Of a DNA stretch of 64,000 bases, positions 1-5,924 are shown one piece after another. The stretch is from the NCBI RefSeq assembly GCF_900156475.1, contig NZ_FTNR01000013.1:62001-126000 (forward strand), read 5' to 3'. The translations under genes and the position numbers were made by a program. The notes under the pieces are model-generated. The model saw only the letters and a list, made by a program, of their open reading frames with translations, was not told the DNA's origin and did no database searches. Numbering within the stretch: the first letter of the stretch is position 1; each line of letters opens with the position of its first letter. Origin of the DNA: Natronorubrum thiooxidans. Lineage in GTDB: Archaea > Halobacteriota > Halobacteria > Halobacteriales > Natrialbaceae.

Positions 1-39
1 CGGTTCCACCAGCTCGCTCAGGAAGCCTACAACTCGTGA
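1..39 (+). CDS. C-terminal tail of a ring-hydroxylating oxygenase alpha subunit (partial)
   Basis: Only the last 12 codons lie in the window: they read RFHQLAQEAYNS and end with TGA. The complete oxygenase at 1583-2593 ends KFHQLAQEAYNS, so this is the end of a close paralogue that begins before the window. In this family the final helix sits behind the catalytic iron domain. Whether the upstream copy keeps its Rieske centre cannot be seen from here. Confidence 0.75.
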   Translation, partial: RFHQLAQEAYNS

Positions 40-529: not shown

Positions 530-1327
530 TTAATCCTCCCGTCGGGGTTCGTCGTCCTGAGACCACTTGTCCGCCGGATCAACTGGCCTGACAGCGCGGG
601 CCAGTTCCTCCTCGGTGTACTCGCGGTCCTCGAGTTGCATACTCTGGAGGCGCCACTGGCGACTCAGTTCCGGCTCACCGTCAGGACCGACTCGTGCCCC
701 GTGGGTTCTGAAGAAGGCCCCATCTCGGCCAAGTCGCGTTCCCTCGTAGGTATGTTGGTCGAACGCAACATCGTACTTTCCATCAGGCTCGAGTTCGTCG
801 GCGGGGTGCTTATACCGCGGCTCACGGCCTTCCTCACGTGCGCTCGCGCGTTCTTCGGAAAGTTCGCCGAAGTAGTCGTCCGCGTGTGCAGACTCTCGAG
901 ATGACGGTGCTCGAGCAGCCGCAAGCGCAGCGTGAACTGCACAGAGACGTCCGCGCCAAGAATCTTCCGACCAGCGCTCGCGAGCCAGTTCCTCGTAGTG
1001 ACTCACTACGAGCGCAACGTCGTGACCGGCACGCAGGTCTTCGACGACGTAGAGGTTGATGCGATCCCAGAAGTTCCACGCATATCCCGATCGAACCAGT
1101 TCCCACGCAGCCCACGCCGCAGTCTCCTCATCCGACCGGCGAACCGCCTTCTGGAGCAGGCTAGAAACGGTATATCGGTTCACCCCCGATTTCGTCTCGT
1201 TTTCCGCAAGTTCGTCGCCGAAGTCGGTACGAGCGGCCTCTGAACTGTCGTCCGTGTCGTCGGACTCGTCTGTCTGGAGTTCGCCGCCGGAGCCGAACCG
1301 TGCCTGTTTTCGGTCGTCCATACACAT
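530..1327 (-). CDS. Protein resembling the C-terminal domain of RarA/MgsA, without the ATPase
   Basis: 265 residues. After an acidic, disordered first 50 residues comes a helical region (about 58-160) with AAWAAWELVRSGYAWNFWDR and AVHAALAAARAPSSRESAHA, then KYDVAFDQHTYEGTRLGRDG near 190-210. This pattern of helices and a late 'P-x-Y-D..H' segment resembles the C-terminal tetramerisation/clamp-loader-like part of RarA (MgsA, COG2256), a replication-fork ATPase. No Walker A or B motif is present, so this is an orphan domain or a partner subunit. The first codons read MCMDD, so ATG at either residue 1 or 3 is possible. It converges on the gene at 92-469 and has no operon partner. Confidence 0.6.
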   Translation of the reverse strand: MCMDDRKQARFGSGGELQTDESDDTDDSSEAARTDFGDELAENETKSGVNRYTVSSLLQKAVRRSDEETAAWAAWELVRSGYAWNFWDRINLYVVEDLRAGHDVALVVSHYEELARERWSEDSWRGRLCAVHAALAAARAPSSRESAHADDYFGELSEERASAREEGREPRYKHPADELEPDGKYDVAFDQHTYEGTRLGRDGAFFRTHGARVGPDGEPELSRQWRLQSMQLEDREYTEEELARAVRPVDPADKWSQDDEPRRED

Positions 1328-1523: not shown

Positions 1524-1582
1524 AACAGTATGCTATATCACTGGCCAACCCTTTTTGCGAATTTACTCAATTGTGGTACCGT

Positions 1583-2593
1583 ATGACCCAATGGGATAGC
1601 GCTCAGACGAAGCCAGTAAGCCCAGACATCACGGCGAAATCGAACGCATTACCAGCGAGGTACTTTACCGAAGACGACGTCTTCGAGATGGAAAACGAGA
1701 AGATATTCGGCCAGTACTGGATGTACGCAGGCCACGCCAACAGCATCAAAGACCCCGGTGAGTTCTTCACTCGGACTATCGGCAACCGAGAGTTGCTCGT
1801 TGTTCGAGCCAATGATGGCACCGTTCGTGCCGTCAAAAACGTCTCAGCCCGCGACGGTTCAGCGATCGTGACTGACGTCCCGATGACTGATCCCGAACAC
1901 ATCGATCTCGATGAACTCGACAGCGCAGACGACGTCCACGTCGATAGTATCGGACCGTTACTGTTCGTGAACCCTCGTGACGATCCGATGCTGCTGGCCG
2001 AGCAGGCTGGCGTCATGAAAGACCGACTCGAGGCACTCCCACTCGAAGAGTACGAACATGCGTGTCGGATCAGTTCAGAAGTCGAATGTAACTGGAAGGT
2101 GTTCGCCAGCAACTACTCCGAGTGTGATCACTGCCAGGCCAACCATCAGGATTGGATCAAGGGTATCTCGCTCGACGAATCTGAACTCGAGGTCAACGAT
2201 TATCACTGGGTACTCCACTACACCCACGAAGCGGATATCGATGACGAGGTGCGCATCCACGACGAACGTGAGGCTCAGTTCCACTACCTCTGGCCGAACT
2301 TTACGATCAACATGTACGGCACTGCCGACGGCTATGGGACCTACATTATTGATCCGATCGACACCGATCAATTCAGACTTATTGCAGACTACTATTTCCG
2401 AGACAGTGAACTCACCGAAGACGAACGAGAGTTCGTCCGCACGAGTCGCCAGCTCCAAGAGGAGGATTTCGAACTGGTCGAACGTCAGTGGGACGGCCTC
2501 AAAACAGGAGCGCTTGCTCAGGCCCAGCTCGGACCCAACGAACACACTGTCCACAAATTTCATCAACTCGCCCAGGAAGCCTACAATTCGTAG
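1583..2593 (+). CDS. Ring-hydroxylating oxygenase alpha-subunit homologue lacking the Rieske cluster motif
   Basis: 336 residues from ATG 1583; a TTG four codons earlier is a less likely start. The C-terminal catalytic (SRPBCC-type) domain is intact. NYSECDHCQANH supplies the mononuclear-iron histidines (His183, His188), and LQEEDFELVERQWDGLKTG supplies the third ligand (Asp295). The N-terminal domain has the usual beta-strands (ELLVVRANDGTVRAVKNV) but the CxH ... CxxH pair that binds the 2Fe-2S cluster is missing: NVCRHRG is replaced by NVSARDG, and the second half-motif with its flanking loop is deleted, so that about residue 100 runs straight into an acidic linker. Family knowledge says the cluster delivers electrons to the iron. 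Without it the protein may use another donor, bind rather than oxidise a ligand, or be inactive. It is a paralogue of the gene cut by the window start. Confidence 0.85.
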   Translation: MTQWDSAQTKPVSPDITAKSNALPARYFTEDDVFEMENEKIFGQYWMYAGHANSIKDPGEFFTRTIGNRELLVVRANDGTVRAVKNVSARDGSAIVTDVPMTDPEHIDLDELDSADDVHVDSIGPLLFVNPRDDPMLLAEQAGVMKDRLEALPLEEYEHACRISSEVECNWKVFASNYSECDHCQANHQDWIKGISLDESELEVNDYHWVLHYTHEADIDDEVRIHDEREAQFHYLWPNFTINMYGTADGYGTYIIDPIDTDQFRLIADYYFRDSELTEDEREFVRTSRQLQEEDFELVERQWDGLKTGALAQAQLGPNEHTVHKFHQLAQEAYNS

Positions 2594-3165: not shown

Positions 3166-3699
3166 TAACGACGCTCGATGAAATATAAATAGAATTGTAT
3201 TTTTCGGAGCCACAGTTGTGCTAGACACACGTTCTGCACCCTACTGCTTCGTATATAACACGTTCTATGACAAAAAAGAGCGTATGTCGGCACCGCCTCA
3301 GTCGGTCGAATCACTTGACGCTTCAACGGTGTTTGAATACCACAACCTCACGTCACCGACCGTAAACAGTAGGAACAAATACTATTTTATAATAGTTTGA
3401 ATGTTTTGAAATTCCAACGTTGTGAATAGTGCTAGCCAGTTACCAGCGGGACGGCGACGAAACGAATTCGACGCCAGCTACGGCGGTCAACGGCGGTCAA
3501 CGACAGTGTTTAGATAATGATAAAAAGGGAGAAGTCACATTTTCTGAATATCTATACCCGAAAACGCGTGTCTCGGTAGTAGTCTCAGCCAGACCGACCT
3601 GGATTTTGTATAGCGAGAAGCGACATCGCGACTGATAAAATTGAGTATTCAGCTATCTCTAGCAAAACTTTCTCTTTCAAATACTATCTCTATTTTTGA
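3166..3699. other. AT-rich stretch without a gene
   Basis: Base composition falls well below that of the neighbours (for example the run ending tttataatagtttgaat near 3390). The short frames here show no haloarchaeal codon use or motif. A tiny direct repeat, two copies of ACGGCGGTCA, lies at about 3479-3499. This looks like old mobile-element or decayed DNA joined to the IS6 relic that follows. Confidence 0.5.
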
Positions 3700-4124
3700 G
3701 AGAGTTACTGTCGAGCGTGCTCGATTGACTGTCCATAATTGGGTCCACAAGGCCAATCTACAGCTGGCAGATGAATGATCATCGGACCACATTGCGGTTG
3801 ACGAAACCGTGATCCAACTGAACGACGAGAAGTGTTAGCTGTACGCCGCTGTCGATCCACAAACAAACAAATTACTGTATACAAAGCCCGAAGCGACGAT
3901 AGCGAAGAATTTCGCTTATTTGTTTCTCACTGAATTTAGCGAGGAATACGAGGTCGACGACGCCGTGTTTCTTGTCGATGATTCGTACTCGTTACAAGAT
4001 ACGTATCATCGGCATGGCTTCGATTTCAGATGCGAAAAACACGGAAATCGGAACGCCATCAAATATGTCTTCAGAAATATATATTGCCGAACTATCGTAT
4101 TTTCAAACTATTTCGAGTGTTCCA
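3700..4124 (+). pseudogene. Relic of an IS6-family (ISH14/ISH29-like) transposase
   Basis: One reading frame matches the haloarchaeal IS6-type DDE transposase in order: VERARLTVHNWVHKANLQ, DHIAVDETVIQLNDEK, LYAAVDPQTNKLLYTK, VDDAVFLVDDSY, YHRHGFDFRCEKHGNRNAIK. The frame has a TGA at 3776-3778 and a TAG at 3836-3838, the latter where the family has Trp before LYAAV. The first and second Asp of the DDE triad are still readable. Similarity fades at about 4122 within the 3' end of the halocyanin gene, which runs the opposite way. No terminal repeats were found. It is inactive. Confidence 0.85.
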
Positions 4125-4642
4125 TCCATGAAGCCGGCGTGTGGCTCACAGTAGTAGTGCTGCGTTCCGGGTTCGTCGGCGTTCCATTCGTAACTGTCCC
4201 CCTCAGTCGAGACAGTTTCTCGGAAGGCACCGCTTGGTGACTTCTGCTCGAGTGAGTCTGTCGACGTGATCGTATGGAAGATATCGTGGGTGCTAATCCA
4301 GCGGACGGTCGTCCCCGCATCGATCTGCACGTGGTCGGGTCTGAACGCGAACGCGCCGTCGTCGCTTTCCTCACCATCGACCAGTTCGATTTCGATGGTC
4401 TCTTCGCCCGTCATGTCGACGAGTACGTCGCTTCCGTCATCGGCGTCGGCTGTCTCATCCGTCGCCGACGAATCGTCGTCCGAGTCGTCACTCTCGGCCG
4501 GTTCAGCATCATCGGTAGCCTCATTGGTCTCGTCAGTCTCGGAGTCGAGACAGCCAGCGAGCGCTGAGACAGCAACGACCGTGGCGGTTCCAGACCGACG
4601 GAGCAGTTTCCGTCGCGTCCACTCTGAACGCTTCGTTCCCAT
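4103..4642 (-). CDS. Halocyanin (type I copper lipoprotein)
   Basis: 179 residues from ATG 4642; a GTG at 4648, two codons earlier, abuts the stop of the upstream gene. Residues 1-31 form a Tat lipoprotein signal (TRRKLLRRSG, lipobox LAGC, Cys31). Residues 32-80 are an acidic linker typical of haloarchaeal surface proteins. The plastocyanin-like domain (about 85-179) shows the four copper ligands His123 (HDIFHTITS), Cys165 (YYCEPH), His168 and Met172. The protein should be a membrane-anchored one-electron carrier on the outer face. It is the last gene of a two-gene operon with the duplicated His-rich lipoprotein, so the two may exchange electrons or copper. Its last codons overlap the IS6 relic. 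Confidence 0.93.
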   Translation of the reverse strand: MGTKRSEWTRRKLLRRSGTATVVAVSALAGCLDSETDETNEATDDAEPAESDDSDDDSSATDETADADDGSDVLVDMTGEETIEIELVDGEESDDGAFAFRPDHVQIDAGTTVRWISTHDIFHTITSTDSLEQKSPSGAFRETVSTEGDSYEWNADEPGTQHYYCEPHAGFMDGTLEIV

Positions 4643-4648
4643 GTGCAC

Positions 4649-5722
4649 TCACTCCAGTGGCGTCGGCATGAAGTTCCGATCGACACCGACCGCAACGTCA
4701 CCCCACGGCATCTCGAGTGGCCGAACGGCGTGGTGGACGAGCCAGTAGCCGTGTTGGCCCTCCTGGCCGCCGTGGCCGCCATCCCAGGACTCGGCGTTCC
4801 ATTTGTGGAAGTGCGTGAAGTCGTCCTCGTGGGGCTGACTTTCCGCTGTGAATTCACCACGGACGCCGATACCGTAGTAGATGAGGTCGCTTGCCTCCCT
4901 GAGATCCGGTTCATCGAAGTGGAGGAAGACGAACACGTCCTCGGTAACCCATTTGGCGATATGGGCTGGCACGTTCGGATACCCGTCTTCGGCCTGTCCG
5001 CCTTCGAAGGGCTCGTCGTCGAAGAGTTCGATCAGCGTCTCGATATCGTCGTCATCGAGCCCGCCCTGCCCCTCGATCTCGAAATCCGCCACCGAGTCGC
5101 CGTCGAACGCTGCCGGCGGCGTGGGCATGAACTCGTAGTCGACGCCGGGTTCGGTTTCGCCGAAGGGGCTCTCGAACTCGTCGACAGCAATGTGCGTGAG
5201 CCAGTAGCCTTCGTCGCCGACCTCGCCGCCGTGCCCGCCGTCCCAGTCATCCGCCTCGTACTGGTGGAAATGCGTGAACTCCGGACCAGGCTGGCCCGCT
5301 TCCGAGAAGACGCCCTTGGTTCCGACACCGACCCAAAGCAGGTTGTTCGCCTCTTCGGGATTCGGCTCGTCGAAGTGGAGGAAGATGAACGTGTCGTCGC
5401 TTACCCACTTCGTCACGTGTGACGGCGTAAACGGATCGCTCTGTTCACCCTGGAACACTCTGTCGTCGAACGCGTCGACGAGTGTCCGGATTTCGTCGTT
5501 TGTCAGTGCAGCACCGGTCGGCGCTGGCTCGAGGTTTGGATCCTCGCTGTCAGCGCCACTCGTACCGTCATCCATATCGTCGGCTCCGGTACCGTCGTCG
5601 GATTCGGCTGGCTCATCGGACTCCTCATCACCCAGACAGCCCGCGACTGCAAGCGCCCCACTCGCACCTAGCACCTGCAGCAATCGACGGCGGTCGACGG
5701 ACCGTGATACATTGGTTGGCAT
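4649..5722 (-). CDS. Tat lipoprotein with two copies of a His/Trp-rich domain
   Basis: 357 residues from ATG 5722; an upstream in-frame extension of 36 codons lacks signal character and is rejected. SVDRRRLLQVLGASGALAVAGC is the Tat lipoprotein signal (lipid Cys29), followed by an acidic linker to about residue 65. Residues 75-203 and 224-356 are two copies of one domain, each with KWV-x2-D..F.FLHFDEP, FTHFH.(Y/W)-x2-(D/E)-x-WDGGHGG, GYWL.H-A and a closing FMPTP. The conserved HFH, GGHGG and L-x-H histidines suggest metal binding on the cell surface. I do not recognise a named family. Its TGA directly precedes the GTG/ATG of halocyanin, so the two are coupled. Confidence 0.85.
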   Translation of the reverse strand: MPTNVSRSVDRRRLLQVLGASGALAVAGCLGDEESDEPAESDDGTGADDMDDGTSGADSEDPNLEPAPTGAALTNDEIRTLVDAFDDRVFQGEQSDPFTPSHVTKWVSDDTFIFLHFDEPNPEEANNLLWVGVGTKGVFSEAGQPGPEFTHFHQYEADDWDGGHGGEVGDEGYWLTHIAVDEFESPFGETEPGVDYEFMPTPPAAFDGDSVADFEIEGQGGLDDDDIETLIELFDDEPFEGGQAEDGYPNVPAHIAKWVTEDVFVFLHFDEPDLREASDLIYYGIGVRGEFTAESQPHEDDFTHFHKWNAESWDGGHGGQEGQHGYWLVHHAVRPLEMPWGDVAVGVDRNFMPTPLE

Positions 5723-5792
5723 ACGAGTAGATGATTGGGAGAGTAGAAGTTGAGGGTATCTCGGGAGTGTATTACCGCCGCCGTACCGCGAG

Positions 5793-5804
5793 AGGATTAT
5801 ATAG
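5793..5804 (-). promoter_or_regulatory. TATA box of the lipoprotein-halocyanin operon
   Basis: On the minus strand the block reads GTCTATATAATCC, about 72 bases before ATG 5722. This implies a leader of about 45 bases. It is the only strong TATA sequence between the operon and the regulator gene upstream. Confidence 0.5.
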
Positions 5805-5924
5805 ACCCCGGTCCTCGCTGTACGTCCCATCGCGCGACGACCACGTGTAGAAGTGGAACCCGGGTCAGCTGTCGCTATCGCGGCTCACGAGTTGGCAGTC
5901 CGTACCTACTCGAGCGCGTCTTCG

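Follow-up and report, generated by a model that had tools for sequence, protein, structure and literature searches.

We describe here a haloarchaeal Rieske oxygenase subunit that has lost its [2Fe-2S] cluster, keeps its mononuclear iron site, and is accompanied by a cluster-bearing paralogue in every genome in which we found it. The gene lies in a stretch of 64,000 nucleotides from Natronorubrum thiooxidans (called the window here). The cluster-less subunit is called R- and its complete paralogue R+. We consider it likely that R- and its partner make up a heteromeric oxygenase of group V (the CntA/GbcA type), in which R- would be the catalytic chain and the cluster of the partner would supply the electrons. 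The physical assembly of the two chains, the electron path, the activity and the substrate are what we infer.

Anatomy of the cluster-less subunit

The frame of R- is intact, with an in-frame TTG 12 bp upstream (Table 1). The C-terminal half matches the Ring_hydroxyl_A profile of Pfam (PF00848) above its cut-off of 24.9 bits. The Rieske profile reaches 18.5 bits, which is below its cut-off of 20.3, and only positions 2-42 of 88 are matched. These scores bear out the sequence-only reading of this DNA, which had called the gene a ring-hydroxylating oxygenase that lacks a Rieske centre. The iron ligands had been given as His183, His188 and Asp295. This numbering is exact. None of the three residues varies across our alignment, bacterial relatives at 20-25% identity included, whereas the cluster ligands do vary.

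Table 1. Features of the R+/R- locus in window coordinates
Feature	Position	Strand	Remarks
R+, last 12 codons and stop	1..39	+	remainder outside the window, L004:8906-10039 = G000:C23:60906-62039
HVO_B0008-like small protein, 125 aa	92..469	+	PF25214/PF25215; between R+ and R-
265-aa protein, family unassigned	530..1327	-	no Pfam match; between R+ and R-
Operator-like element	1531..1549	+	about 52 bp before the R- ATG (-52); TATA-like box just upstream
R-, cluster-less Rieske oxygenase alpha subunit, 336 aa	1583..2593	+	intact ORF; PF00848 74.7 bits
Truncated former [2Fe-2S] core, residues 86-118	1838..1936	+	Cys to Ser88, His to Arg90, CxxH half deleted
Catalytic domain, residues 150-336	2030..2590	+	96% aa identity to own R+; dN/dS 0.05 (indicative)
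Bridging Glu180 (CntA Glu205 equivalent)	2120..2122	+	invariant in 20/20 R-; role from PMC7948474
Iron ligand His183	2129..2131	+	invariant
Iron ligand His188	2144..2146	+	invariant
Iron ligand Asp295	2465..2467	+	invariant

At residues 86-92, R- reads NVSARDG where the adjacent R+ has NVCAHRG, and about 41 residues, including CPYH, are missing relative to R+. The loss of the cluster motif had thus been described correctly, both the NVSARDG sequence and the deleted second half-motif; the ancestral motif had been guessed as NVCRHRG, which the neighbouring paralogue contradicts. The first cysteine position is a serine in all 20 R- sequences, the first histidine position is His, Asn or Arg, and the second cysteine and histidine are absent. 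The canonical CxH...CxxH ligands are therefore missing from R-; they are present in R+ and in the Fe-less partner described below. No replacement Cys or His is conserved among the R- sequences at residues 85-125, and an alternative cofactor site that had been proposed for this segment is not supported. The 2-His-1-Asp site is complete in R-, and the E-C-x-H-C motif of the group V (quaternary-ammonium) oxygenases is represented by E180, C181 and C184 in 20/20 sequences.

The structure of R- predicted by AlphaFold has a mean pLDDT of 84.7 and a pTM of 0.87. The shortened Rieske part is predicted to be an ordered domain, with pLDDT values of 92-98 at residues 81-150. AlphaFold and Foldseek agree on the two-domain Rieske oxygenase fold with a shortened Rieske part. 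The best fold match in the PDB is CntA (E 2e-24, TM 0.80), followed by stachydrine demethylase.

The complete paralogue and the locus

R+ consists of 377 residues and has both centres (PF00355 68.7 bits, PF00848 72.4 bits). The usual gene order is a gene of unassigned family, R+, the HVO_B0008-like gene and R-. The HVO_B0008-like gene lies 3' of R+ in nearly all loci, including those without R-. The 265-aa gene is kept between R+ and R- in several Natrialbaceae and is absent from this place in other lineages. The first gene of the series (L004:7515-8684) encodes a protein of 389 aa, immediately precedes R+ in almost every R+/R- locus (36-54% identity), and ends about 1.3 kb before the first base of the window. 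The protein has no Pfam or NCBIfam match; it may be a regulator of the R+/R- pair.

The neighbours of the pair include DAO-GcvT fusion oxidases, a formaldehyde dehydrogenase, a BCCT transporter and p-aminobenzoate genes. The last of these, PabA/PabB-like genes for aminodeoxychorismate synthase (L004:5209-7367), adjoin the amine-oxidation genes and are also present in Natronococcus CG52, Halocatena and Halogranum. They apparently provide a dedicated folate supply for demethylation. Further along the window, the fragmentary frames at 3690-4080 (+) look like the remnant of a broken transposase, and at 4103-5830 (-) a gene for a cupredoxin-like lipoprotein adjoins a gene for a protein with two internal repeats.

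An element near TTCWATATMACTGGTKAAC is found at the same distance in nearly all promoters of R-, R+ and the Fe-less partner, and in none of five single-copy outgroup genes. In the genome of the window, the only match with at most two mismatches lies before R+, and the R- copy has three. The element is matched poorly in two R- copies, those of Halogranum and Haladaptatus halobius.

Distribution and co-occurrence

The R- form is present in at least 20 haloarchaeal genomes of four families. The sample comprised 391 genomes of Halobacteria, with a close oxygenase encoded in 72 of them and R- in 16 (one copy is broken by assembly gaps); four more genomes came from family and order searches. Orthologues with the same length and the same deletion occur in Haloterrigena, Natrinema, Natronococcus, Haloprofundus, Halocatena, Halostagnicola, Natronolimnohabitans, Halegenticoccus, Halogranum and Haladaptatus, on plasmids and on other contigs. 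With an identical length and deletion in no fewer than 20 genomes, R- cannot be a product of chance or of faulty sequencing.

A Rieske-bearing partner is encoded in 20/20 genomes with R-, usually in tandem and 0.2-3.6 kb upstream. Haloterrigena, Halostagnicola and Natrinema versiforme differ in that about 10 kb or more separate the two genes. Among the sampled Halobacteria, many genomes have the complete oxygenase alone and none has R- alone. Two odd-length copies from Haloterrigena salina (L029 and L050; JCM 13891, contig_57) were left out of the trees for their assembly gaps (X). Their oxygenase frames are chimeric or gapped, with X inside and repeated segments, and probably reflect mis-assembly between near-identical copies.

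The co-occurrence bears on how R- would obtain its electrons. A separate catalytic subunit could be fed by a soluble Rieske or ferredoxin protein or by a reductase, with no assembly with R+. The full iron site of R- is compatible with this, and NdmC offers a precedent as a non-heme iron monooxygenase without a Rieske cluster, the cluster being carried by the reductase NdmD (PMC4408171). However, neighbourhood, copy number and promoter link R- to a single Rieske protein, its own paralogue, and no other reductase is conserved beside R- in the neighbourhoods examined. Moreover, the Rieske core of the partner is strongly constrained exactly where the partner no longer has an iron site, and this fits a role of the paralogue as the donor. 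We judge an independent donor to be unlikely.

Reciprocal loss in the Natronococcus clade

Six genomes of the Natronococcus clade (L017, L018, L019, L022, L023 and L116) encode an upstream partner that lacks the iron site. This Fe-less partner keeps a perfect NVCAHRG...CPYHLWTYDL Rieske motif, with all four C/H/C/H ligands, and has none of the iron ligands; both the NYSECDHCQANH iron motif and the Asp ligand are gone. Its Rieske domain scores 68.3 bits, and its catalytic domain, at 22.4 bits, falls below the Pfam cut-off. R- in the same six genomes shows the opposite pattern, with Y178, E180, H183, H188 and D295 kept and C/H/C/H lost. At the threshold applied, no further close oxygenase was found in these genomes; cluster and iron are thus shared out between the two proteins of the pair. 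This reciprocal division is confined to the six genomes; in the genome of the window, only R- is reduced.

The catalytic domain of the Fe-less partner is predicted to be still largely folded. The pLDDT is mostly 74-90 and lower near the lost motif and at the end, and CntA is the best fold match here too. A folded domain is as expected if it has been retained for assembly. In a separate observation, lone Fe-less homologues seemed to be present in four genomes (scores of only 43-46%), and all of them turned out to be complete oxygenases of another subfamily.

These genomes also weigh on the idea that R- is a structural or regulatory subunit with no catalytic role (a pseudo-enzyme, a beta-like subunit or a substrate sensor), whose iron site would serve folding or ligand binding. 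Many Rieske oxygenases are stabilized by subunits without a catalytic role (PMC12445004), and the confident predicted fold throughout the former Rieske domain of R- would suit such a function. Against it, the iron ligands, the bridging Glu and the Cys pair of group V are invariant in 20/20 R- sequences. In the six genomes R- has the only iron site of the pair, so that no oxygenase would remain if R- were not catalytic. We find a non-catalytic R- rather improbable. The same fact disfavours the suggestion in the sequence-only reading that the protein binds a ligand without oxidizing it; the other suggestion, that electrons arrive in another way, is probably right, and a Rieske-bearing partner does exist, upstream and outside the window.

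Selection and gene conversion

The dN/dS values given here are pairwise Nei-Gojobori estimates from few, related sequences and are indicative only. The Rieske core gives 0.09 both for the Fe-less partner and for the complete R+; the catalytic domain gives 0.60 for the former and 0.05 for the latter. The catalytic domain of R- gives 0.03-0.10 overall and 0.10 in the genomes with a Fe-less partner; for the window copy, the comparison with its own R+ over this domain gives 0.05, from 12 replacement and 41 synonymous changes. The residual Rieske part of R- evolves faster, at 0.19-0.30. The constraint tracks the division of labour, domain by domain.

These ratios also speak to the possibility that R- is a decaying duplicate or a pseudogene. 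The destroyed cluster and the faster evolution of the residual Rieske part could be read in this way. Set against this are the low ratios in the catalytic domain, an open frame whose length does not vary among the intact assemblies, and a single origin across genera and families. We give decay practically no credence. An isolated decay of the window copy, which was considered separately, is ruled out by the presence of the same form in at least 20 genomes and by its low catalytic dN/dS. The sequence-only reading had argued from the intact frame and the good conservation of the remainder that this was not simple decay, and the value for the window copy (0.03-0.05 in the catalytic domain) agrees. 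It had asked whether orthologues in other genera share the deletion, and the common 336-codon form shows that they do. A lone exception under relaxed selection, which it had named as the outcome that would speak against it, is not what we see.

The catalytic domains of R+ and R- are 93-100% identical inside most genomes. In the DNA tree of this domain, 9 of 12 R- genes are the exact sister of the R+ of their own genome, and forcing R- to be monophyletic costs 613 log units (AU p 3e-64). In the tree of the N-terminal part, R- is one clade with a support of 97/99, and no R+/R- pair is sister. The median synonymous distance between R- and R+ within genomes is 0.30 for the catalytic domain and 1.27 for the cluster core; between the R- catalytic domains of different genomes, the median dS is 1.21. 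The contrast between the trees and between the distances indicates that gene conversion has repeatedly homogenized the catalytic domains without restoring the cluster. On the 5' side, conversion often extends to about residues 31-60. It has stopped in the clade with the Fe-less partner. The catalytic-domain tree taken alone would suggest an independent loss of the cluster in each genome; this was rejected, as the N-terminal tree and the shared deletion give a single R- clade. The deletion interrupts the homology, and a mechanical barrier to conversion could contribute to the sparing of the core. The persistence of the cluster loss is therefore not by itself a proof of selection.

It could also be argued that R- and R+ are independent enzymes with different substrates and their own electron donors, as there are two promoters and the N-terminal domains have evolved apart. 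Conversion has kept the catalytic domains nearly identical in most genomes, however, which is the opposite of substrate divergence, and one promoter element is common to both genes. We regard two independent enzymes as very unlikely.

Proposed mechanism

Within one CntA chain, 44 Å separate the two centres; across the border to the next subunit the distance is approximately 12 Å, and the transfer depends on Glu205 (PMC7948474). As electrons cross the border in this way, R- would need no cluster of its own and could be catalytic if its neighbour has one. We propose that a tandem duplication gave rise to R- and R+ as two subunits of one oxygenase. R- would fold as a normal subunit and bind Fe(II) and the substrate, and the Rieske cluster of an adjacent R+ subunit would pass electrons to it by way of Glu180. 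The shortened Rieske domain of R- would serve the ring as a structural element. R+ is complete in most lineages, that of the window among them, and the assembly there would be a mixed one. In the Natronococcus clade, the partner that lost its iron site would only deliver electrons, which would make the division complete. The reaction is most likely an oxidative N-demethylation, with a betaine or another quaternary or tertiary amine as the substrate, and the product would feed the folate-linked oxidases of the sarcosine/dimethylglycine type next door. The neighbouring DAO-GcvT oxidases, formaldehyde dehydrogenase and PabA/PabB fit a demethylation of amines into folate.

At the sequence level, the shared promoter element, the 20/20 co-occurrence, the homogenized catalytic domains and the pattern of selection all point to a heteromer. 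The reciprocal losses are predicted by electron transfer between subunits, and the other readings do not predict them. Against a heteromer, a complete R+ could work alone as a homotrimer, and R- is not directly beside R+ in Haloterrigena, Halostagnicola and Natrinema versiforme. We lean slightly towards viewing the genomes as a natural series, from a single gene to an asymmetric mixed ring that is kept compatible by conversion and on to reciprocal loss. The mixed rings would contain fewer clusters than irons, leaving some active sites with no cluster of their own, and conversion would have stopped once the chains had specialized.

Transfer between subunits in Rieske oxygenases has so far been deduced from structures and mutants. 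Here, evolution would have separated the two functions into a relay-only and an iron-only chain. With the half-split forms, it becomes possible to study the number of clusters that a ring requires and the reason for which a cell drops one. They also suggest that conversion can keep two subunits alike and yet leave a functional difference between them untouched. Genes now annotated as 'SRPBCC family protein' would become recognizable as one half of a two-chain oxygenase.

Comparison with known systems

The carnitine monooxygenase CntA (PDB ID: 6Y8J, 6Y9D) is the nearest solved structure to R- both by sequence and by fold. The two have in common the N-Y-x-E-C-x-H-C motif with the bridging Glu and the Cys pair (PMC10952381). 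CntA is a head-to-tail trimer with electron transfer across subunits (PMC7948474, PMC10952381). It differs in that each chain of the homotrimer has both centres, whereas R- has no Rieske cluster. The best NCBIfam match is the glycine betaine monooxygenase GbcA (NF058607), with 77.8 bits for R-, 144.2 for R+ and 114.3 for the Fe-less partner. The pathway context is similar, but all three scores are far below the family cut-off of 670 bits, and the proteins are thus not members of this family.

NdmC, of the caffeine N7-demethylase NdmCDE, resembles R- in having an iron domain and no Rieske cluster of its own, and it receives electrons from the cluster of another protein (PMC4408171). In that system, NdmD combines the Rieske domain and the reductase in one fusion protein and the GST-like NdmE is also required, whereas the haloarchaeal cluster is carried by a tandem oxygenase paralogue. 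Neither a Rieske-reductase fusion of the NdmD type nor a GST-like NdmE was found among the neighbour genes of R+/R- that were examined. NdmA and NdmB (α3α'3) are a precedent for a hetero-oligomer of two paralogous α subunits (PMC12445004), but both of their chains have the Rieske cluster (PMC4408171), which R- lacks.

The chlorophyllide a oxygenase of Micromonas pusilla (MpCAO) is one Rieske oxygenase made of two chains that jointly carry the cluster and the iron, and it is active in vitro (PMC9615114). It belongs to an unrelated family, in a eukaryote, and has a tetrapyrrole substrate. Compared with MpCAO, the haloarchaeal case has both half-split and fully split states and gene conversion between the chains. 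Kunugi et al. reportedly described reciprocal motif losses in Micromonas CAO in 2013. In the open-access literature that we searched, no archaeal split oxygenase is described. The splitting itself has precedents in NdmC and MpCAO; new here are the family, its occurrence in archaea, an intermediate state in which R+ is still complete, and the conversion between the chains.
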